This document shows, piece after piece, positions 6,328 through 63,386 of a DNA stretch of 64,000 nucleotides. This DNA is from Actinomadura harenae. Its GTDB lineage: Bacteria; Actinomycetota; Actinomycetes; Streptosporangiales; Streptosporangiaceae. A model generated the notes under the pieces. It was not told where the DNA came from. It saw only the letters and a list, made by a program, of their open reading frames with translations, and made no database searches. The stretch is from contig NZ_RFFG01000041.1 of NCBI RefSeq assembly GCF_003696215.1, positions 1 to 64,000 of the forward strand, given 5' to 3'. Both the position numbers and the translations under genes were made by a program. The first letter of the stretch is position 1, and each line of letters starts with the position of its first letter.

Positions 6328-7578
<1,251 letters not shown>

Positions 7579-7613
7579 CGGTCGGCCTGACGGTCCGGCC
7601 TGACACACGGCCC

Positions 7614-7660
7614 CGAACGGCCGTCCGCCTCCCCTTTCCGAGGGGGCGGGCGGCCGTTCG
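7614..7660 (+). terminator. Terminator of the ABC ATPase gene
   Basis: A long GC-rich hairpin: CGAACGGCCG at 7614 pairs with CGGCCGTTCG ending at 7660, and the inner GC-rich bases also pair with minor G-U pairs and slippage around a short loop. It begins 36 bp after the stop codon. Confidence 0.75.
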
Positions 7661-7777
7661 CCGTTCCGCGCACGATCGAAGTAGCAGGCCGGTGGCGCAC
7701 CCCGCCCCCTTGCGCCCGCCGCCGCGACGGCCAAGGATGGAGAATCGATCACCCGAGCCCGGACAGGAAGGCGGCCC

Positions 7778-8611
7778 GTGCCCGGCACCCTGCTCGCCAT
7801 CAGTGACCTGCACGTCGGCCACGCCTCGAACCGTGAGCACCTGGCGGCGCTCGAACCACGCGACCCGGACGACTGGCTGATCGTCGCGGGCGACGTCGCC
7901 GAGCGCGCCGACGACATCGCCTGGGCCCTCGGCACCCTCGCCGAGCGGTACGCCAAGGTGGTGTGGGCGCCCGGCAACCACGAGCTGTGGACGCCCCGCA
8001 ACGACCCCGACCAGCGGCGCGGCGAGGAGCGGTACCTGCACCTAGTCGAGGTGTGCCGGGAGCTCGGCGTCCACACGCCCGAGGACCCGTACCCGGTGTG
8101 GCGGGGCGCGGGCGGCCCGGTGCAGCTGGTGCCGCTGTTCCTGCTGTACGACTACAGCTTCCGGCCGGACGGGGCGTCCACCAAGGACGAGGCCCTGGAG
8201 ATCGCCTACCGGTCCGGGATCGTCTGCACCGACGAGTACCTGCTGCACCCCGACCCGTACCCGACGCGGGACGCGTGGTGCCGGGCCCGGCTCGCCTACA
8301 CCGAGGACCGGCTCGCGAACCGCGGCAGCGACCTGCCGACCGTCCTCATCAGCCACTGGCCGCTCGTCCGGGAGCCGACCCGGGTGCTGCGCTACCCCGA
8401 GTTCGCGCAGTGGTGCGGGACGGACCGGACGGCCGACTGGCACCTGAAGTACGAGGCGGCCGCCGTCGTGTACGGCCACCTGCACATCCCCCGGACGACC
8501 GTGTACGACGGCGTCCGGTTCGAGGAGGTGTCGGTGGGCTACCCGCGCGAGTGGAAGAGGCGCGGCGGGCCCGCCGGGCCGCGCCCGGTGTTCCCCGCCG
8601 CGGCCTCCTGA
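7778..8611 (+). CDS. Metallophosphoesterase (calcineurin-like)
   Basis: A 277-residue protein with the metallophosphoesterase motifs in order: SDLHVGH (residues 9-15), GDVAE, GNHELW, a late SHWPL and GHLH. These supply the dinuclear metal ligands. The substrate (nucleotide, phosphodiester or protein) cannot be told. The start is GTG with AGGAAGG 6 nt upstream. It stands alone: it follows a terminator and converges with the ferredoxin reductase gene, whose stop is 16 bp away. Confidence 0.85.
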   Translation: MPGTLLAISDLHVGHASNREHLAALEPRDPDDWLIVAGDVAERADDIAWALGTLAERYAKVVWAPGNHELWTPRNDPDQRRGEERYLHLVEVCRELGVHTPEDPYPVWRGAGGPVQLVPLFLLYDYSFRPDGASTKDEALEIAYRSGIVCTDEYLLHPDPYPTRDAWCRARLAYTEDRLANRGSDLPTVLISHWPLVREPTRVLRYPEFAQWCGTDRTADWHLKYEAAAVVYGHLHIPRTTVYDGVRFEEVSVGYPREWKRRGGPAGPRPVFPAAAS

Positions 8612-8627
8612 CCGGCGCGGGCCGCCG

Positions 8628-10070
8628 TCAGGCGGGGCTCGCCATCGCCGCGGGCGCGGGGAGGCGCCCGGCGTTGAGGTCGTCGACGAGCTGCCGGACG
8701 GTCTCCCGGGCGCACGTCTTGTTGGTGCCGATGAAGCCGGTCGGCCCGCGCTTGATCCAGCCCGTCACGTAGGTGCCGGGGACGGGCGCGCCGGTGCCGG
8801 GGTCGACGACCCGGCCCCGGTCGTTCGGGACGACCGCGCGGACGTCGTCGAAGGGCAGGCCGGGCAGGGGCCGCGCCCGGTATCCGATGGAGGTGAGGAC
8901 GAGTCCCGCCTCCAGGTGCTCGGTCTCACCGGTCGGGACGGTCTCGTCGCCGCGCTGGGCGGCGCGGGTGAACGTGACGCCCGTTGCGGTGATCTCGGCG
9001 GGGGTGAGCAGGTACCGGAGGGTGACGCGCCGTCCCGTGGCCGGCTCGTGGGCGAGCGCGCGGATCGTGCGGTGCTTCAGCGACGCGTCGTCCAGGCCGG
9101 TGAGGTCGCCGGGCGGGACGGACACGTCCACGGCCGAGCTCAGCCCGACCAGTTCCGCCAGGGTGAAGGCCGAGTGGGCGGGTCCCCGGCGTCCGGCCAC
9201 CACGACCTCCTCGATCGCGCTGGCCCGCAGGACGTCCAGGGCGGCGCGGGAGATCGAGGTCCGGGCCAGGGCGTCCGGCGGCGTGGTGAGGACGCGGGCC
9301 ACGTCCAGCGCGACGTTGCCGTTGCCGATGACGACGGCCCGGCGGTGCGAGAGGTCGAACCGGTGGTGGGCGTGGTCGGGGTGGCCGTTGTACCAGGCCA
9401 CGAACTCGGTCGCCGTCGCGACGCCGGACGCGCCGGGGACCTCCAGGCGGCGGTCGGACGACGCGCCCGTCGCGTAGAGGACCGCGTGGTGGTCCCGCAG
9501 CAGGTCGGCGTGGGTCACCCGCTCACCGATCCGGACGCCGAGGTGGAGGTGGAAACCGTCCTCGCGGGAGATCCGGTCGAAGACCTCGGTGACCCGGCGG
9601 GTCTCGGCGTGGTCGGGGGCGACGCCCGTCCGGGCGAGGCCGTAGGGGGTCGTCAGGCGCTCGTAGACGTCGACGCGCGCGCCCGGGATCGTGAGGATCT
9701 CGTCGGCGGCGTACATCGCGGACGGCCCGGACCCCACGATCGCGACGCGCAGCGGCTCGCGGGAGGTCACGCGCAGGGGCTTCTCGTGCGGGGCGAGGAT
9801 GGTCCGCCGCTGCCGTCCGTCCTTGTAGAAGTCGGCGTTGATCTCGAGGAACGGCAGCTGCGTGTCGTCCAGCCTGCCCGCCGGCCTGATCGCCCCGACC
9901 GGGCACGCGCTCACGCAGGCCCCGCAGTCCACGCAGCTCACGGGGTCGATGTAGAGCATCTCCGCGGTGAGGAAGTCGGGCTCGTCCGGGGTGGGGTGGA
10001 TGCAGTTCACCGGGCAGGCGTGGACGCACGAGGCGTCGTTGCAGCAGGACTGCGTGACCACGTGGGGCAT
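8628..10070 (-). CDS. Ferredoxin/ferredoxin-NADP+ reductase fusion (FprB type)
   Basis: A 480-residue protein. Residues 1-65 form a two-cluster ferredoxin (CCNDASCVHACPVNC, then CVDCGACVSACP). From about 105 follows an adrenodoxin-reductase-like flavoprotein with the FAD motif VGSGPSA, the NADP motif GNGNVALDVAR, and a C-terminal GWIKRGPTGFIGTN block. The architecture matches mycobacterial FprB: it takes electrons from NADPH and passes them through its own ferredoxin domain. The gene lies 47 bp downstream of an AurF-like di-iron oxygenase on the same strand, so it is the natural electron donor for that enzyme (inference). Confidence 0.92.
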   Translation of the reverse strand: MPHVVTQSCCNDASCVHACPVNCIHPTPDEPDFLTAEMLYIDPVSCVDCGACVSACPVGAIRPAGRLDDTQLPFLEINADFYKDGRQRRTILAPHEKPLRVTSREPLRVAIVGSGPSAMYAADEILTIPGARVDVYERLTTPYGLARTGVAPDHAETRRVTEVFDRISREDGFHLHLGVRIGERVTHADLLRDHHAVLYATGASSDRRLEVPGASGVATATEFVAWYNGHPDHAHHRFDLSHRRAVVIGNGNVALDVARVLTTPPDALARTSISRAALDVLRASAIEEVVVAGRRGPAHSAFTLAELVGLSSAVDVSVPPGDLTGLDDASLKHRTIRALAHEPATGRRVTLRYLLTPAEITATGVTFTRAAQRGDETVPTGETEHLEAGLVLTSIGYRARPLPGLPFDDVRAVVPNDRGRVVDPGTGAPVPGTYVTGWIKRGPTGFIGTNKTCARETVRQLVDDLNAGRLPAPAAMASPA

Positions 10071-10117
10071 GGGGCGATCTCTCCGGTCGGGCGGCGGCGT
10101 TCAGGCTGCGGTGTCGG

Positions 10118-11086
10118 TCAGGCTGCGCGGGCCGGGCGGTGCGGTTCGCCGCGGTGCCGGGACGGCCGTCCGTCGATCTTCAGGGCCTTCCACAGCCGGG
10201 TGGAGACGGGGTTCATCAGGCCGAGCTCGTCGGCGAGCATCCGGACGTCGCCGAAGTAGCCGCGCATGATCTCGCGGGACGCCGGGCTGTCCCAGAACGC
10301 CTCCTTCATCACCGAGCGCGGGATGCCGAAGCGCTTCTCCAGGTCGCGGGGCGGCGACATGATCGCACCGGCGAGCCAGCGCATGATCACCGGGTAGGCG
10401 AGGGACGTCGCGCCCTTCCCGACGCGTCCCTGCCGCCGCACCTTGTCGTGCAGGAAGCGGTGCGCGAAGGAGATGTGCCGCGCCTCCTCGGCGATGTGGA
10501 TCTCCATGGTGCGGAGCACCGCCGGGGGCAGCTCGTCCTCGCCCGCCCGGACGGCCTCCTTCTGGAAGTGGTCGATCGGCTCCTCGCCCGCGAGGATGCC
10601 GATGAAGAAGACGATCGGCAGGTAGGCGGCCAGATGCCAGAAGTGCGAGGTCGCGCGGTAGTCGGCGCGCATCCCGGGGACCGCGAGGCCGGTCCGGTTG
10701 ACCAGCTCCTGGAACATCTGGATGTGGTTGCACTCCTCGGTCATCTCGTGGAGGCAGTAGCGGAACTCGGGCGTCCCGTTCGGCAGCCGCATCGCGTACT
10801 GCATCATCCCGCGGATCAGGACGCTCTCGAACTGGAGGCCGACCTTCTGGATGTTGGCGACCCGCCACATCCCGATCTCGATCCGCCGCTTCTCGGGCTG
10901 CGCCTTGTACCAGGGGTGCGCGCCGAGCGGGTCGCAGTCGGGGAGGATCCAGCGCGGGTCGTCCGCGTCGATGCGGAACTCGGGCGAGTCCCAGTCGATG
11001 TCGAGGTAGGGGTCGAAGCGGCGCGTCACCGAGCCCTCCGACAGGACGCGCAGCGTGTCCCGGTAGTCCTGGTCGATGGTCGTCAC
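10118..11086 (-). CDS. AurF-like di-iron oxygenase
   Basis: A 322-residue helical protein of the AurF (p-aminobenzoate N-oxygenase-like, PF11583) type. The di-iron ligand motifs are visible: HEMTEECNHIQMF in the middle and EIHIAEEARHISFAH later. Family members oxidise amines or other substrates with O2 and need external electrons, which fits the FprB-like gene downstream. I start at GTG 11086 because GGAGG lies 5 nt before it; the longer GTG 12 bases upstream contains that Shine-Dalgarno. It is divergent from a TetR gene with a TTACAGT/ACTGTAA operator between them. No substrate is evident. Confidence 0.82.
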   Translation of the reverse strand: MTTIDQDYRDTLRVLSEGSVTRRFDPYLDIDWDSPEFRIDADDPRWILPDCDPLGAHPWYKAQPEKRRIEIGMWRVANIQKVGLQFESVLIRGMMQYAMRLPNGTPEFRYCLHEMTEECNHIQMFQELVNRTGLAVPGMRADYRATSHFWHLAAYLPIVFFIGILAGEEPIDHFQKEAVRAGEDELPPAVLRTMEIHIAEEARHISFAHRFLHDKVRRQGRVGKGATSLAYPVIMRWLAGAIMSPPRDLEKRFGIPRSVMKEAFWDSPASREIMRGYFGDVRMLADELGLMNPVSTRLWKALKIDGRPSRHRGEPHRPARAA

Positions 11087-57544: not shown

Positions 57545-58117
57545 GTGACCGCCCCGCCCGACACGGCCCCGACGGACGCGGAGCTGCTCGCCGCGTCCGT
57601 GCAAGACGGCGACCACTTCACCGCCGTGTACGACCGGTACTACGCCGACGTCCACCGGTACGTCGCCGGGCGCCTCGGTCCGCAGACGGCCGAGGACGTC
57701 GTGGCCGAGACCTTTCTCACCGCGTTCCGCCGCCGCGACACGTTCGATCCGTCCCGCGGGTCCGTGCGGCCCTGGCTGTTCGGGATCGCGACCAACCTCA
57801 TCGCCCAGCACCGTCGCACCGAGACCCGCCGCTACAAGATGCTCGCGCAGGTCGTCGTGGAACGTGACCCGGCCGGACACGAGGACCGGGTCGCGGCCTC
57901 GGTGTCCGCCGAACGACTCCAGCCGTCGCTGGCCCGCGGGCTCGCCGCGCTGTCCCACAAGGACCGCGACGTCGTGCTGCTCAAGGCCCTCGCCCAGCTC
58001 ACCCACGAGGAGATCGCCGACGTCCTCGGCGTCCCGTACGGGACCGTCGGCTCCCGCCTGAGCCGAGCGCGCAAGAAGCTGCGCGCCGGTCTGCCCGCCC
58101 ACTCGGAAGGACTGTGA
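57545..58117 (+). CDS. ECF-type RNA polymerase sigma factor (second copy of module)
   Basis: A 190-residue sigma factor. Region 2 is at about 20-90 (FTAVYDRYYADVHRYVAGRL, then TAEDVVAETFLTAFRRR and RPWLFGIATNLI). Region 4 is at about 125-185 (LSHKDRDVVLLKALAQLTHE, then VPYGTVGSRLSRARKKL). AAGGGACGG lies before the GTG. The stop overlaps the GTG of the CU044_5270 gene (GTGA). It is a paralogue of the sigma factor at 1336-2007 but lacks that protein's N-terminal extension. Confidence 0.92.
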   Translation: MTAPPDTAPTDAELLAASVQDGDHFTAVYDRYYADVHRYVAGRLGPQTAEDVVAETFLTAFRRRDTFDPSRGSVRPWLFGIATNLIAQHRRTETRRYKMLAQVVVERDPAGHEDRVAASVSAERLQPSLARGLAALSHKDRDVVLLKALAQLTHEEIADVLGVPYGTVGSRLSRARKKLRAGLPAHSEGL

Positions 58118-59136
58118 CCTTGGACGAACTCGAGATGATCGCCACCATGCTGGACGAGCCGCCGACGGCGGAGAGCGAGGCCGCCGTCCGCCGGCGCCTT
58201 CTCAGCGGGACGAGCGAGCCCGAGCCGCCGAAGCGCCGCGCCCAGCGCCGTCCCATCCTGTGGAGCGGCTTCGGCCTGGCGGCCACCGCCGCCGCGGTCA
58301 CGGGGGCGGTCGTCCTGTCCTCGGGGACGACTCCGCGCGCGCCCGACGCCGGCCACGGGCCTGAGGCCGTGCAGCCGATGTCGGCGAAGACCGTGCTGCT
58401 CACCGCCGCCGAGCACGCCGAGACCGCGCCGGCCACCGGCCAGTACTGGCACGTCCTGCGGATCCAGTCGAACGCCTTCTACAACGAGCGCGGTGACTAC
58501 TGGATGCTCGGGCAGCAGCTCATCGGGCAGTGGAGCCAGCGGGACGGCCGGTCCTGGACCGGATTCCGGGGGCTCGGCGCCGTGCCCATGACCCCCAAGG
58601 ACGCTCCCGCCTTCAAGCGGGCCGGTTCCCCCGACCCGGCCCCGATCTCCCCCGCCCTCATGAAGGACACCGGGACGAAGACCTTCTCGGTCTGCGACGC
58701 GGCGATGACGTTCAAGCAGGTCCAGGCGCTGCCGGCCACCCCTGGCGCACTGAAGAACGCCTTGAAGCGGGCGATCCCCCGCAAGCACCCCACAGCAGGC
58801 GGGACGGCGGACGAGGTCGTGAAGAACTGCGTGTCCGACCTGCTCAGCTCCGTCCCCGCACCGCCGAAGGTGCGCGCCGCCGCCTACCGGATGCTCGCCA
58901 CCATGCCCGGGGTCACCTCGATGGGCCAGGTCACCGACGAGCGCGGACGCAAGGGCTTCGGCCTGCGCGTGCGGGTCATGCCTGAGGTCACCGACACCGT
59001 GATCATCGACCCGGACTCCTCGCTCGTGCTGAGCACGACGCGCACCCTTCCCAACGTCCCCGGCAAGGTCCAGAAGGAGCTGTACCTCCAGGCCGACTGG
59101 ACCAACAGCCCCCCGAGCATCCCCAGCCTCCCCTGA
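58114..59136 (+). CDS. CU044_5270-family membrane protein (second copy of module)
   Basis: A 340-residue protein. A cytoplasmic N-terminus (about 1-46; DELEMIATMLDEPPTAESEA) precedes one membrane helix (about 48-70, LWSGFGLAATAAAVTGAVVL) and a large external domain with motifs shared with the protein at 171-1343 (VRAAAYRMLATMPGVTSMGQ versus VRAAAYRLLAALPDARSAGR). It is translationally coupled to the sigma factor and probably modulates it. Two strong hairpins follow the gene. Confidence 0.85.
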   Translation: MTLDELEMIATMLDEPPTAESEAAVRRRLLSGTSEPEPPKRRAQRRPILWSGFGLAATAAAVTGAVVLSSGTTPRAPDAGHGPEAVQPMSAKTVLLTAAEHAETAPATGQYWHVLRIQSNAFYNERGDYWMLGQQLIGQWSQRDGRSWTGFRGLGAVPMTPKDAPAFKRAGSPDPAPISPALMKDTGTKTFSVCDAAMTFKQVQALPATPGALKNALKRAIPRKHPTAGGTADEVVKNCVSDLLSSVPAPPKVRAAAYRMLATMPGVTSMGQVTDERGRKGFGLRVRVMPEVTDTVIIDPDSSLVLSTTRTLPNVPGKVQKELYLQADWTNSPPSIPSLP

Positions 59137-59209: not shown

Positions 59210-59253
59210 ACGAGAAGACCCCGAAATGCACACGCATTCCGGGGTCTTCTCGT
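59210..59253. terminator. Second, very strong hairpin terminator
   Basis: A 20-bp stem with a single mismatch (arms 59210-59229 and 59234-59253, ACGAGAAGACCCCG / CGGGGTCTTCTCGT at the base) and an ACAC loop. It lies between converging transcription units and is likely to act in both directions. Confidence 0.88.
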
Positions 59254-59339: not shown

Positions 59340-59465
59340 CGGCCACGATCCCCGTCGGTTATGCCCGCGCCTCGGTGACGCAGGGGATCCGGCGTCCAGG
59401 AGCGCGTCCCCGGCCGCGAGACCGACCTACCCGCCACCGATGACGACGGTCTTCACGTCCTTCAT
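59340..59465 (-). pseudogene. Decayed FAD-dependent oxidoreductase, 5' remnant
   Basis: The ATG (59465) overlaps the stop of the PurA-LOG gene (ATGA) and the reading starts MKDVKTVVIGGG, a dinucleotide-binding beta-alpha-beta start. Codon 13 is TAG (59427-59429). The same frame then continues VGLAAGDALLDAGSP, which completes the classical GxGxxG-helix. A frameshift later, another frame reads VTEARA and PTGIVAG. The rest of the gene is missing before the terminator at 59253. It was evidently the fourth gene of the P450/methyltransferase/PurA-LOG operon. Confidence 0.65.
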
Positions 59466-61483
59466 CGCCGGGCTTGGCTGGGGTGTGCCAGGTGGAGGGC
59501 CTCCTCGGCTGTTCGGGCCCGGACCACCAGGGAGCGGTCCTGGTCTGCGACGAAGCCTTCGGCGTGGGCGTGGTCGAACAGGTCGATCAGGGGTTGGAAG
59601 TGGCCGGTGTCGTCCAGCAGGATCACCGGTTTCTCGTGGAGGCCGAGCTGCGCCCAGGTGATCATCTCGAGGAGTTCCTCCAGGGTGCCGTAGCCGCCGG
59701 GAAGCGCGATGAAGGCGTCGCCGAGTTCATGCATCAGCATCTTGCGCTGGTGCATGGTGGGGACGACGCGCAGGTCGGCCAGGTCGGGACGGCAGAACTC
59801 GCGGCGTTTCAGCGGTTCGGGGATCACGCCGATGACCTCGCCGCCGTGGCCGAGCGCGGCGTCCGACAGGGCGCCCATCATCCCCACGCCGCCCGCCCCG
59901 TAGACGATGCCGACGCCCCGTTCCGCGCAGGCGCGTCCCAGGTCGGCCGCGAGGGCGCGGTGGTTCGGCCGGACTCCGGGGGCGGCGCCGCAGAACACCG
60001 TCACGCGCGGCGGTTTCCGGTGGCCCGCGCGGGGCGCGGGGACGCGTGGTGGGGCGGGGCGCATCAGGTGGTCCAGTTCGCCGAGCGGGACGGTCAGCAG
60101 GTCGGTGTCGCGCGGGCCGGTGCCGATTCCGCTGACCGGCAGGTCCAGGTAGCGGCTCACGAAGTCGGCCAGGGCGCGGGCCTCGGCGGGCAGGTCGGCG
60201 TACCGGCGGACGGCGCGGGTGGACGTCCGCCAGCCCGGCAGGTAGGCGTACATCGGCGCGCATCCGGCGAGGTAGGCGTGGTCCGGTTCGAAGGGCAGGT
60301 AGCGGCGGCCGTCCCGTTCGTAGCCGACGCAGACGCCGATGAGGTCGAAGCCGTCCAGGACGTCCAGTTTGGTCAGCGCGACGCTGGTGTTGCCGTTCAG
60401 CTCGGCGGCCCAGCGGGCGTGCGGCAGGTCGAGCCAGCCGCAGCGGCGCGGGCGTCCGGTGGTGGTGCCCGTCTCCTGCCCGCGTTCGCGCAGGCGGGCG
60501 CCGAGTTCCCCGGTGTCCTCGGTGACGAACGCGCCGTTCCCGACCATCGTCTGGTAGCACTTCAGGACGCCGACGCGGTGGTGGATCCGGGTCAGGTCCA
60601 GGCCGGTGCCGCTCGCCACCGAGTGGATCGCCGTCGCGGACGTCGTCACATACGGGTAGATGCCGTGGTCGAGGTCGATGAGGGGGCCCTGGGCGCCCTC
60701 GAAGAGGATCGAGTAGCCCGCGTCGGCGGCGGCGTTGAGCAGCCGCACCGAGTCGACGCTGTGCCTCTGGAGGAAGTGGCGGTGTTCCTCCAGCCACGCC
60801 AGGCTCTCGGGCACGTGCTCGTCGGGCAGGCCGAGCAGGGCCGCGCTCTGCCGGATCCGTCCCTCGACGACCGCCATGTCGTCCAGGTCCCGGACGCGGA
60901 CGCCGCTGCGGTTGGTCCTGCACACGTTGGCGGGGCCGATGCCGCGCTGGGTGGTGCCGATCGCCCGGCCGTCCTTGCGCAGTCCGTCCTCCTGCCGCGC
61001 GTCCGCCAGCAGGTGCAGCGGAAGGACGAGGTGGGCGCGGTCGCTGAGCAAGAGCCGTCCGGAGCAGTCGACGCCCCGCCGGGCGAGGTCGGTGATCTCG
61101 GCGGCGAGCGTCCCGGGGTTCAGCAGGACGCCGTTGGCGATGACCCCGACCGTCCTGTCGTGCCGCAGCCCGGACGGCAGCAGGTGCCCCTTGAGGACGA
61201 CGTCGCTTCCCTCCGCGTCACGGAACACGGTGGTGTGGCCGGCGTTGTCACCGCCCTGCACCCGCACGACGATCTGGTGGGACGGCGCGAGCCGGTCGGT
61301 CATCGCGCCCTTGCCGCCGTCGCCCTGCTGCATGTCGCTGATCCAGGTGAGCCGCTGACTCCTCGGCAACTCCAGCCCGCGCCGGGTGAGCAGCTCCAAG
61401 AGTTCGCCGCGCCGCCGCTCGCGGTGCCGCCGGGCCTCACCGGCGTGCCCGTCCAAGGACGGTGTGACGGTGGGCCCGGTCAT
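59462..61483 (-). CDS. Adenylosuccinate synthetase-LOG phosphoribohydrolase fusion
   Basis: A 673-residue bifunctional-looking protein. Residues about 42-475 are adenylosuccinate synthetase: MQQGDGGKGAMTD (Asp 55 and Lys 58 match the catalytic Asp and P-loop Lys), QGGDNAGHT (His 83), GTTQRGIGPA, LFEGAQGPLIDLDHGIYPYV, TTGRPRRCGW and LTKLDVLDGFDLIGVCVGY. Residues about 492-665 are a LOG/TIGR00730 domain: VTVFCGAAPG, YGAGGVGMMG, MHQRKMLM and LPGGYGTLEEL. PurA-type enzymes join aspartate to IMP with GTP; LOG enzymes cut the base off a nucleoside monophosphate. Together they could release an N6-substituted purine (inference). The start overlaps the methyltransferase stop (ATGA). P-loop Glu is Gly here. 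Confidence 0.9.
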   Translation of the reverse strand: MTGPTVTPSLDGHAGEARRHRERRRGELLELLTRRGLELPRSQRLTWISDMQQGDGGKGAMTDRLAPSHQIVVRVQGGDNAGHTTVFRDAEGSDVVLKGHLLPSGLRHDRTVGVIANGVLLNPGTLAAEITDLARRGVDCSGRLLLSDRAHLVLPLHLLADARQEDGLRKDGRAIGTTQRGIGPANVCRTNRSGVRVRDLDDMAVVEGRIRQSAALLGLPDEHVPESLAWLEEHRHFLQRHSVDSVRLLNAAADAGYSILFEGAQGPLIDLDHGIYPYVTTSATAIHSVASGTGLDLTRIHHRVGVLKCYQTMVGNGAFVTEDTGELGARLRERGQETGTTTGRPRRCGWLDLPHARWAAELNGNTSVALTKLDVLDGFDLIGVCVGYERDGRRYLPFEPDHAYLAGCAPMYAYLPGWRTSTRAVRRYADLPAEARALADFVSRYLDLPVSGIGTGPRDTDLLTVPLGELDHLMRPAPPRVPAPRAGHRKPPRVTVFCGAAPGVRPNHRALAADLGRACAERGVGIVYGAGGVGMMGALSDAALGHGGEVIGVIPEPLKRREFCRPDLADLRVVPTMHQRKMLMHELGDAFIALPGGYGTLEELLEMITWAQLGLHEKPVILLDDTGHFQPLIDLFDHAHAEGFVADQDRSLVVRARTAEEALHLAHPSQARR

Positions 61484-62196
61484 CGCCGGTCACCCGGCCC
61501 GTCCGGTGCGGTGGCCCGGACCAGCTCGAACAGCCGGTGCTCGACGTGCGGGTCGGGTGGGGCGGCGAGCGCGGCGAGCAGGACGGCATGCCACCGGTTC
61601 GCGGCGGCGACCGTCTCCATCGTCGTCCGGTCCCCGATGTCGCCGAGGCCGAGGAACAGCCTGCCGCCCGGTGCCAGGACGTCCGCCGCGCCGCCGAGGT
61701 AGGCGCGCAGGCAGCGATGCCCGATGTCGAAGACGCCCTTGGCCAGGTCCGGGTCGTGGTCGCCCGCCTCGGGGAGGGAAACGTAGGGGATGTTCCAGAA
61801 GACGGCGTCGTAGGGAGCGTCCTGGCGCACGGCGGAGAACACGTCGCCGACGAGGGCGCGCACCCAGGGCACCCCGTGCCGGGCCGCGTTCCGGGCCGTC
61901 GCGGTGACCGCGGACGGGTTGACGTCGACGGCCGTCACCGCCGCGCACCCGGCGAGCGCCGCCGTGACCGAGGTGACCCCTGCGCCGCTGCCGACTTCCA
62001 AAAACCGGCCGCCGATGGGGTACGGCAGGGCGCGGGTGTAGAACTCGGTGCCGTGGGTGTGGACGGGTGAGAAGACGCCTTCGGCGAGTTCCCAGCGGCG
62101 TCCCATCAGCGTGAAGTCGCGCGCCCCTTCGGCCCGTGCGTGACCGATGAGCCGGAGACCCTCGTCCAGTCCGGCCGCGTGCCGCTCGCCTGTCAT
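61480..62196 (-). CDS. SAM-dependent methyltransferase with NIPY motif
   Basis: A 238-residue class I methyltransferase. The SAM motif is FLEVGSGAGVTS (residues 65-76), then TAVDVNPSAVTATARNA, and the catalytic loop FWNIPYVSLP (135-138 NIPY). An N-x-P-Y motif marks PrmC/HemK-like and DNA-amino enzymes that methylate nitrogen, so an amino or amide nitrogen is the likely target. GGGAGGGA lies 3 nt before the ATG. It lies 26 bp downstream of the P450 and overlaps the PurA-LOG gene by ATGA. An N-methylated purine would fit the context (inference). Confidence 0.85.
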   Translation of the reverse strand: MTGERHAAGLDEGLRLIGHARAEGARDFTLMGRRWELAEGVFSPVHTHGTEFYTRALPYPIGGRFLEVGSGAGVTSVTAALAGCAAVTAVDVNPSAVTATARNAARHGVPWVRALVGDVFSAVRQDAPYDAVFWNIPYVSLPEAGDHDPDLAKGVFDIGHRCLRAYLGGAADVLAPGGRLFLGLGDIGDRTTMETVAAANRWHAVLLAALAAPPDPHVEHRLFELVRATAPDGPGDRR

Positions 62197-62222
62197 CGTC
62201 CCTCCCTGGATGACCGCGCAGC

Positions 62223-63386
62223 TCACCAGCGCGCGGGAATGCGGACCGGCCGCCTGATCGTGAGCGCCGAGTGCCAGTCCAGCCGTCCGGCCAGGCCGTC
62301 GAGCCGGGCGTCCGGGAGCCGCTCGACCAGGGCCGAGAGCGCCTCGGTCATCTCCATCCGCGCGAATCCGGTCCCCGGGCAGTAGTGGTGGCCGAGCCCG
62401 AACGCCAGGTGCGGGTTCGGCGTCCGCGCCGGGTCGAACCGGTCCGGCGCGGCGAACGCGCACGGGTCGCGGTTGGCGATGTCCAGGCTGAGCAGCACCA
62501 GTTCGCCCGCGCGGATCGGCGTGCCCTCGACCTCGACGTCCGCAGTGGCGATGCGCGGTATGCCGTCGTGCACCCACAGCGCGTACCGCAGGAACTCCTC
62601 CACCGCCGAAGGCATGAGCGCCGGGTCCTCATGGAGGCGGCGCATGAGGCCCGGGTCGCGGAGCAGTGTCAGGACGGCGTGCGCCAGCACCCCGACGGTG
62701 CTCTGCGCCACGATGAACATCGCCCCGGCGAGGATCACGGCCTGCTCCACGTCGATCTCGCTCCGCACGGCGACGTCGTGCACCCGTTGGAGCAACCCGT
62801 CGCGAGGGGCCCGCGTCTGCACGAGCAGGTAGGCGCAGTACTCCTCGTACGATGCCCGTAGTTCCTCGGGGGTGTGGACGCTCATGCTGGTCCCCACCTG
62901 GCCCCAGGTGTCGAGCGTGTCCGCGTCCTCGAACGGCAGGCCCGCCATCGCGCAGGCCACCCGGGTCGGCAGCGGCGCCACGAAGTCCGCGAACAGGTCG
63001 GCGGGCGGCCCGCTCCGGACGAGGCCGTCCAGCAGTTCCCCGGCGGTGGCGCGGGCGAGCGGCCGCAGTTCCTCGACCGCCGCCGGGCCAAGCGCCCGCA
63101 TGATCTCACTGCGCACGCCAACGGACCGCGCGACCTCCATCGAAGTGATGATCTCCGGCGGCACCGTGGGCGTGTCCTGCCGGGGGACGCCCGGACGCGC
63201 CGTCTCGGAGTGGCTGAACCGCGCGTCGCCGAGCACCGCGCGGGCGGCGTCGTACCCCGTGACCAGCCAGGCGACGTCACCGGTGTTGGTCCGCACCCGC
63301 GTGACCGGCGGCAGCTCTCGGTACTGTGCGGCCACTTCGTCACCCCGTGCGCTGAACGGGAAGCGCGGCAGGTCGTCGTCCGCCAC
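62223..63386 (-). CDS. Cytochrome P450 with atypical I helix
   Basis: A 387-residue bacterial P450. The haem loop FGLGHHYCPGTGFAR gives the Cys ligand (Cys 336), and the ExxR is EFLR (264-267). Two conserved places differ. The I-helix, normally AGxETT, reads IVAQST (Gln 228, Ser 229 at the acid-alcohol pair). The usual DPPxHxRLR before the C helix reads SMEVARSVGVR, so the haem-propionate His is lost. Such changes occur in pathway-specific P450s with unusual oxygen chemistry. GTG 63386 has GGGGAG 5 nt upstream; GTG 63392 is less likely. No ferredoxin is adjacent. Confidence 0.88.
   Translation of the reverse strand: MADDDLPRFPFSARGDEVAAQYRELPPVTRVRTNTGDVAWLVTGYDAARAVLGDARFSHSETARPGVPRQDTPTVPPEIITSMEVARSVGVRSEIMRALGPAAVEELRPLARATAGELLDGLVRSGPPADLFADFVAPLPTRVACAMAGLPFEDADTLDTWGQVGTSMSVHTPEELRASYEEYCAYLLVQTRAPRDGLLQRVHDVAVRSEIDVEQAVILAGAMFIVAQSTVGVLAHAVLTLLRDPGLMRRLHEDPALMPSAVEEFLRYALWVHDGIPRIATADVEVEGTPIRAGELVLLSLDIANRDPCAFAAPDRFDPARTPNPHLAFGLGHHYCPGTGFARMEMTEALSALVERLPDARLDGLAGRLDWHSALTIRRPVRIPARW

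Follow-up and report, generated by a model that had tools for sequence, protein, structure and literature searches.

A PurA-LOG fusion beside a CYP121/PtmB-type cytochrome P450 in Actinomadura harenae: a candidate purine-base module of a natural-product pathway

The window analysed in this work, a 64,000-nucleotide stretch of the Actinomadura harenae genome (contig NZ_RFFG01000041.1, positions 1 to 64,000), encodes on its minus strand an adenylosuccinate synthetase (PurA) joined to a LOG phosphoribohydrolase, together with a class I methyltransferase and a cytochrome P450. We favour, with moderate confidence, the reading that PurA-LOG, P450 and methyltransferase belong together as a purine-base module within a pathway to a natural product, in which the P450 would join the base to a cyclodipeptide or similar scaffold; the final product is probably a purine-bearing compound that is so far undescribed. 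PurA and LOG form a single chain in three genomes and are encoded by separate neighbouring genes in two more, and a P450 of the type associated with cyclodipeptide synthases (CDPS) adjoins them in all five loci. Because the two proteins are either fused or adjacent beside the same P450 type, the arrangement supports their acting as one unit. The five loci were recovered through PurA or PurA-LOG, so that the independent part of this co-occurrence is the P450 in 5/5 loci and the separate LOG in both split loci.

Distribution of the PurA-LOG pair

Relatives of the fusion were found in Bailinhaonella thermotolerans (L028) and Nocardiopsis trehalosi (L029), 58 and 63% identical to the window fusion over the alignment. 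Since the same stop-free join recurs in these two other genera, it is neither an artefact of assembly nor an accidental run-on. In addition to these fusions, for which a preliminary description of this DNA had proposed to look together with their neighbours, two split loci (L146 and L147) emerged, and each of the four places lies next to a CDPS-type P450. A scan of one genome per species (84,980 species) with six exact peptide patterns, which distant relatives may escape, yielded 21 loci with relatives of the query, namely two fusions and 19 that matched the LOG part only. All 65 genomes of the host genus, the A. harenae genome included, matched the fusion at E <= 1e-60, with both domains covered in A. 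harenae only; among the matches listed, the others stopped by residue 527 and mostly concerned the PurA part. With a profile built from the three fusions and applied to partly overlapping genome samples, matches were obtained in 3/341 genomes of the family, in 2/394 of the class sample (both already known), in 1/396 of the phylum sample (A. harenae itself) and in 2/392 genomes of genus g85, which is probably Streptomyces and which contributed the two split loci. Of 246 matching plasmid records, none covered 80% of the fusion within a single stretch. The PurA-LOG fusion is thus rare in the genomes searched.

The PurA domain

The fusion gene (59462..61483, minus strand) encodes 673 residues in one open reading frame, as the preliminary description had stated, and the union of the two domains was confirmed by the list of open reading frames, Pfam and NCBIfam as well as by the homologues in L028 and L029. 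The PurA domain spans residues 51-461 (60101..61333, minus strand), matching Pfam Adenylsucc_synt (PF00709) at exactly that place with an E-value of 7e-124 and 415.8 bits. A predicted structure of the fusion, computed from 13 alignment rows of which 3 held PurA, had a mean pLDDT of 64.6, with a poor PurA domain and LOG blocks at ~78-97, and was not used as evidence.

The preliminary description had left at stake whether the fusion gene performs housekeeping synthesis. It is not a housekeeping gene, because a separate normal purA lies elsewhere in the genome (contig C211); on PF00709 it scores 611.6 bits and the fusion 415.8. The same holds for all five module genomes, whose housekeeping PurA proteins reach ~610-619 bits and whose module PurAs reach 404-428, and a housekeeping role of the module PurA was rejected on these grounds. 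We likewise give almost no credence to an accidental fusion without a pathway; its rarity (3/341 genomes of the family) would suit an accident, but normal purA genes occur in all five genomes and the neighbour set and active sites are kept across four genera. The A. harenae genome also encodes a third, divergent PurA-like protein of 432 amino acids on contig C63 (L177:4856-6154), with 216 bits on PF00709, the motifs GFGDAGKG and GGAQAAHN, and an NrtR-type NUDIX regulator nearby.

In the phylogenetic tree, a branch with 100/100 support separated the five module PurAs from 22 housekeeping rows, and the clade that they form has a very long branch. The residues that we take, from the Escherichia coli enzyme, to be catalytic (Asp13 and His41, the latter being H83 in the window protein) or to bind inosine monophosphate (IMP; Asn38, Thr129, Arg143, Gln224, Thr239), aspartate (Thr300, Thr301, Arg303, Arg305) and GTP (Lys331, Asp333) are kept, along with Lys16, in all three fusion proteins (E. 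coli numbering). Changes common to the three fusions are E14G, L228I and R304P, the last at a position occupied by Asp in the housekeeping PurA of A. harenae, and the window protein also carries K140R and S414G. The columns were compared with 23 housekeeping rows (20 from the genus of the window, one from Burkholderia, and E. coli entered twice), in which 131 columns were invariant; all five module PurAs retain 93 of these and all five depart from the housekeeping residue at 14, with W11Q, E14G, Y137N, D139C/S, S240T and R272M lying next to substrate residues. The module PurAs scatter around the cut-off of PRK01117.1 (402 bits; window 394, L028 400.6, L029 403.8, L146 413.6, L147 383.6) and all fall below that of TIGR00184 (395.55 bits; range 355.5-393.5, window 366.2).

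These departures raise the question of altered specificity, in which the module PurA clade would use another nucleotide or amine and the base would be neither succinyladenine nor adenine. The 14 changed columns out of 131, several of them adjoining substrate positions, and the very long branch favour this explanation, but Asp13 and the aspartate residues Thr300, Thr301, Arg303 and Arg305 are retained and the loop GTTTGRPRRCGWLD is the same as in the PurA chain 1dj2, presumably the Arabidopsis enzyme; we consider it unlikely. In phage PurZ, D13 is changed, and the PurZ model gave the window protein 87 bits, well under its cut-off of 300.

The LOG domain

The LOG domain occupies residues ~494-663 (59495..60004, minus strand), with TIGR00730 matching residues 493-663 (3.5e-52), Pfam Lysine_decarbox residues 536-663 (E 5e-41), and the motifs MHQRK and PGGYGTLEE. 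According to the accessible part of the report on CgLOG, that enzyme relies on the catalytic Arg99 and Glu122 and on an N6 pocket formed by Met96, His97, Lys100, Glu125 and Trp129 (PMC4979012). The counterparts in the window protein are M577, H578, R580 and K581 (CgLOG Met96, His97, Arg99 and Lys100) and E602, E603, E606 and W610 (Glu121, Glu122, Glu125 and Trp129), so that both catalytic residues, R580 and E603, are present. The PGGxGTxxE motif is kept in all five module LOGs, as are the Met, His, Arg, Lys, Glu, Glu and Trp residues, and the position of CgLOG Glu121 is occupied by Asp in two of the relatives. An N6 pocket altered for a succinyl group was considered but is not supported, the pocket residues being ordinary. 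On the CtkRMPhLog model of NCBIfam the window LOG scored 141.7 bits (cut-off 300).

Separate LOG genes lie on contigs C30 and C234 of the A. harenae genome. The one on C30 (L027 ~10231-10806), like a LOG gene of Streptomyces hainanensis (L030:9998-10603), stands beside an M20 peptidase-like gene near non-ribosomal peptide synthetase genes, and the two LOGs pair in the tree with 98/97 support; the M20-like and carbamoyltransferase-like genes on C30 were named by eye and the M20 gene of S. hainanensis by Pfam. Whether this pairing represents a second natural-product use of LOG is a question raised by these loci.

The P450 and the cyclodipeptide synthase link

The P450 gene (62223..63386, minus strand; Pfam p450, 2.9e-19) has a plausible GTG start at 63386 in a frame that is open to 63575, and its product displays the motifs FGLGHHYCPG and EEFLR. 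Among solved structures it matched PtmB best (8yxt, 2.5e-77), followed by chains named Cytochrome P450 121, with GymB1 at 3.8e-62. PtmB was the top match for all four module P450s searched (window, B. thermotolerans, N. trehalosi and L146), and the L147 and L146 enzymes share 61-62% identity. By contrast, the CDPS-linked P450 encoded on contig C11 of A. harenae scored ~350-355 bits against NasF5053, NascB, NzeB and AspB and 200 against PtmB. The preliminary description had rightly placed a P450 on the same strand, with a boundary at 63386 that fits the GTG start, but its term "atypical" is doubtful, given that the protein belongs to the CDPS-associated CYP121/PtmB type.

These matches suggest that the window P450 may couple nucleobases in the manner of GutD, PtmB and GymB1. 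In the available part of the source, ptmB of Kitasatospora mediocidica with cyclo-Trp-Trp led to two guanine and two hypoxanthine products (PMC13122648); judging from its name, the deposited PtmB structure would be that same K. mediocidica protein. P450s that yield both mycocyclosin and nucleobase adducts from cyclo-Tyr-Tyr are also on record, as far as the portion of the paper at hand goes (PMC10092475). The idea that the P450 oxidises a free base, put forward in the preliminary description, is not supported in view of this similarity to enzymes joining nucleobases to cyclodipeptides and of the CDPS genes in two of the clusters.

Those two clusters belong to the other fusion genomes. The order in B. 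thermotolerans is sulfotransferase, Asp/Glu racemase-like gene, P450, a second type of methyltransferase (MT1), the window type (MT2), CDPS (PF16715, 1.5e-70) and fusion. In N. trehalosi it is MT1 (59% to that of B. thermotolerans), CDPS (59%), P450 (44%) and fusion, where CDPS, P450 and fusion make up one tight run and the P450 and fusion genes overlap by a few bases. Within the family, CDPS genes occur in 57/338 genomes, including all three fusion genomes. As a control, 59 regions of 6 to 20 kb were examined out of the 66 CDPS places listed. The A. harenae place was read apart as L050, and the others left out were five that were weak or partial and a second fragment of one place. Domains of PurA or LOG (E <= 1e-5) appeared in 2/59 regions, which are the two fusion clusters, and L050 had neither domain at that threshold; PurA-LOG is therefore not a usual part of CDPS clusters.

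Further observations on these genomes concern the Asp/Glu/hydantoin racemase-like and sulfotransferase genes of B. thermotolerans, which adjoin the P450 gene (L028:4217-6143, minus strand), and the presence of three CDPS genes in the single genome of N. trehalosi (contigs C135, C261 and C263). Contig C11 of A. harenae (L050:11173-13286) pairs a CDPS with a NasF5053/NascB-like dimerase P450, and related CDPS genes are found in other genomes of the genus; this locus possibly makes a dimeric cyclodipeptide.

A cytokinin-like hormone was also considered, in which a freed N6-substituted adenine would act as a signal after oxidation by the P450 and methylation. The fas operon of Rhodococcus fascians offers a precedent, since it too holds P450, methyltransferase and LOG genes together, and the LOG pocket equals that of cytokinin LOGs. 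The P450s of the modules are nevertheless of the CDPS type, CDPS genes stand in two clusters, and there is no isopentenyltransferase gene near the modules. PF01745 gave one match each in 4/5 genomes, on other contigs and at 21-28 bits (cut-off 20); these matches covered no more than positions 2-99 of the 233, lay in frames 311-420 amino acids long, recurred in 9/14 control genomes, and would represent tRNA-modifying relatives. We regard a cytokinin end product, as envisaged in the preliminary description, as quite improbable.

Split loci and their PurB relatives

In L146, PurA, LOG and P450 genes lie side by side (7133-8662, 8753-9439 and 9540-10775), and in L147 the module lies on the minus strand, where an ATGA overlap links the PurA and LOG genes. 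Identities to the window proteins are 60-61% for PurA, 60-62% for LOG and 36% for the P450. Polyketide synthase genes, an APH-like kinase and a thioesterase surround the module in L146; in L147 the surroundings comprise an adenylation-carrier-thioester reductase protein, a carrier protein and a SARP-like regulator.

Both split loci also contain a relative of the adenylosuccinate lyase PurB (L146:5691-6824, minus strand; L147:14988-16100, plus strand), whose TIGR00928 matches (2.6e-44 and 2.5e-41) fall well short of the model's cut-off and which matches no Pfam family. These proteins are ~50% identical, over the shared region, to the housekeeping PurB of their own genomes. The SSxMPxK loop, present in all four housekeeping PurBs examined, is missing from both, and so is, according to the alignment, a second stretch that reads RSHxxxAQ in the two g85 PurBs; the exact RSHxxxAQ is likewise not found in the A. 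harenae or E. coli PurB, so that it is the missing stretch that counts and not the pattern. RHD and TSxD are kept, and no displaced fragments turned up. The missing parts presumably hold the catalytic serine and histidine, and the split clusters seem to lack an active PurB lyase of their own. Nothing like these PurB relatives was found near the three fusions, and a housekeeping PurB is present in all five module genomes.

These observations bear on the nature of the base. One explanation is adenine supply, in which PurA would raise the flux from IMP, the housekeeping PurB would complete adenosine monophosphate (AMP), and LOG would free plain adenine as the coupling partner of the P450. AMP is also a substrate of LOG enzymes, the part of the CgLOG source at hand describing an AMP-binding site and AMP and adenine standards in mutant assays (PMC4979012), and both the ordinary LOG pocket and the housekeeping PurB in 5/5 genomes agree with it. 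On the other hand, AMP is abundant in any cell, which would make a duplicated PurA fused to LOG superfluous, and the split-locus PurB relatives lack the SSxMPxK loop and the RSHxxxAQ stretch; we consider adenine supply rather doubtful. The PurB relatives without the catalytic loop point the same way as the alternative capture of adenylosuccinate.

Methyltransferases and flanking sequence

The window methyltransferase MT2 (61480..62196, minus strand) is a HemK/PrmC-like class I enzyme (NCBIfam PRK14968 4.4e-15 and RF_mod_PrmC 6.2e-14, both below cut-off) that likely starts at the ATG at 62196, preceded by GGAGGG. An N-type NIPY motif had been reported for it; the sequence indeed reads WNIPY, as does that of its homologue in the B. 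thermotolerans cluster, which is 55-56% identical. A match of the methyltransferase domain to PADLOC mad2 (3.6e-21) was set aside as general methyltransferase similarity. The P450, MT2 and fusion genes share the minus strand, with 26 bases from the end of the P450 gene to the MT2 start and an ATGA overlap (61480..61483, minus strand) between the MT2 stop and the fusion start, which bears out the earlier description of the gene order and suggests that MT2 and the fusion are translationally coupled.

MT1 occurs in 2/5 loci (B. thermotolerans and N. trehalosi), B. thermotolerans carrying both types. Within the stretches examined, the MT2 query had no match in L146 or L147, and the MT1 query had a weak match in L147 only, ~3 kb from the P450. 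Co-occurrence of the four window genes in relatives, which had been singled out as decisive, is accordingly seen for PurA, LOG and P450 (5/5 loci) but not for MT2, which we do not count as a core member of the module. Weak MT2 relatives (27-32% identity, 52-60 bits) were noticed ~4-6 kb from CDPS genes in genus g40 (L126, L127, L128, L129, L131, L133 and L135).

Between the fusion and a convergent gene (58114-59136) lies an inverted repeat (59210..59253) with two 20-nt arms, 95% complementary, and a 4-nt loop, which is possibly a bidirectional terminator. A promoter and terminator scan returned nothing above chance and did not include this repeat among its predictions. The host genome comprises 9.35 Mb in 279 contigs and is 99.24% complete.

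Discussion

The pathway that we envisage for the module would begin with the PurA domain which, given its kept residues, would condense IMP with L-aspartate at the expense of GTP to form adenylosuccinate. The LOG domain of the same chain would then act on an N6-substituted AMP, hydrolysing its N-glycosidic bond to release a free purine, N6-succinyladenine if the nucleotide is caught before the PurB of the cell acts on it and adenine otherwise. Adenylosuccinate is the more sensible LOG substrate because AMP is present in every cell, so that a dedicated second PurA would be useful only through its own product. The CYP121/PtmB-type P450, judging from its family and gene neighbours, would oxidatively attach the base to its scaffold, either a cyclodipeptide or a comparable aromatic compound, and, by analogy with GutE acting on guanine, the HemK-like methyltransferase would methylate the adduct or the base. 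In its most specific form, which we advance tentatively as a possibility, the fusion would intercept adenylosuccinate to give N6-succinyladenine for coupling to a cyclodipeptide or other scaffold by the P450, which would create a new class of hybrid metabolites; the PurB relative of the split loci would shield adenylosuccinate or, as a subunit of the housekeeping PurB tetramer, poison it, causing adenylosuccinate to build up. The earlier proposal that the fusion makes an N6-substituted AMP and frees its base is upheld in part, as regards a PurA/LOG unit with kept catalytic residues.

Several observations weigh against the assignment of this module to nucleobase coupling. CYP121, which we take to be mycocyclosin synthase, matches nearly as well as PtmB (in the L146 search, a chain named Cytochrome P450 121 scored 249.6 bits and PtmB 249.9) and, because the two score alike, the P450 reaction is not readable from sequence alone. 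The module P450s did not form one clade in the tree (3 changes; 0% of 200 bootstrap trees; 52/500 shuffles as low), the window P450 is 36-39% identical to the others, and its closest relatives found (43%) are those of L097 and L098, CDPS-P450 loci without PurA-LOG; the P450s may therefore have been recruited into the modules more than once. The module LOG domains group weakly (43/89; 40% of bootstrap trees), and their N6 pocket is of the ordinary cytokinin kind with glutamate and bears no sign of a fit to a dicarboxylate. MT2 is confined to 2/5 loci. No CDPS stands beside the window module, the sole CDPS found in the genome being that on contig C11, which has a dimerase-like P450 of its own; CDPS queries had no match in L146 and L147 within the DNA stretches examined, and one split-locus genome has only a weak, partial CDPS match.

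If the proposed pathway is correct, a base made by the cluster itself would extend nucleobase coupling to adenine-type or amino-acid-bearing purines, and two opposite purine steps, the building of a nucleotide and its stripping, would reside on one chain. The retention in two clusters of a PurB relative that has lost its catalytic parts would be a further notable case, and the adjacency of PurA, LOG and CYP121-type P450 genes would provide a handle for genome mining.

Compared with known PurA enzymes, the window protein is alike in its full domain and in the catalytic and ligand residues examined, and differs in its deep separate clade, 14 clade-specific changes, N-terminal extension, fusion to LOG and status as a second copy. 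With phage PurZ (2-aminoadenylosuccinate synthetase) it shares membership of the PurA family and a presumed special product, and it differs in its score (87/300 bits) and in keeping Asp13. The LOG part resembles LOG phosphoribohydrolases in its PGGxGTxxE motif, catalytic Arg and Glu and N6-pocket residues, whereas it is the C-terminal half of a fusion, has no isopentenyltransferase nearby and lies below the CtkRMPhLog cut-off. The module departs from the fas operon in the lack of a nearby isopentenyltransferase, in its CDPS-type P450 and in the presence of PurA. In the literature searched, from which most subscription papers were absent, no paper joined a cyclodipeptide synthase to adenylosuccinate, papers on adenylosuccinate synthetase and phosphoribohydrolase were unrelated by title and the start of the abstract, and we found no described pathway with this gene set, as the preliminary description had anticipated. 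Nucleobase-coupled cyclodipeptides are already known; that literature yielded no cluster in which a PurA-LOG pair provides the base. The nearest known systems, as described in the accessible parts of their sources, are the guanitrypmycin/purincyclamide and guatyromycine pathways (PMC7954767, PMC10092475, PMC13122648), which are alike in their P450 group, in a methyltransferase (GutE in some) and in the CDPS that adjoins the module in two relatives, and which make a purine base the probable coupling partner here too. Pathways of the guanitrypmycin/guatyromycine type have a CDPS, unlike the window module with none adjoining, and the bases named in those parts are guanine and hypoxanthine, with no mention there of a base-making enzyme, whereas PurA-LOG would here give an adenine-type base.

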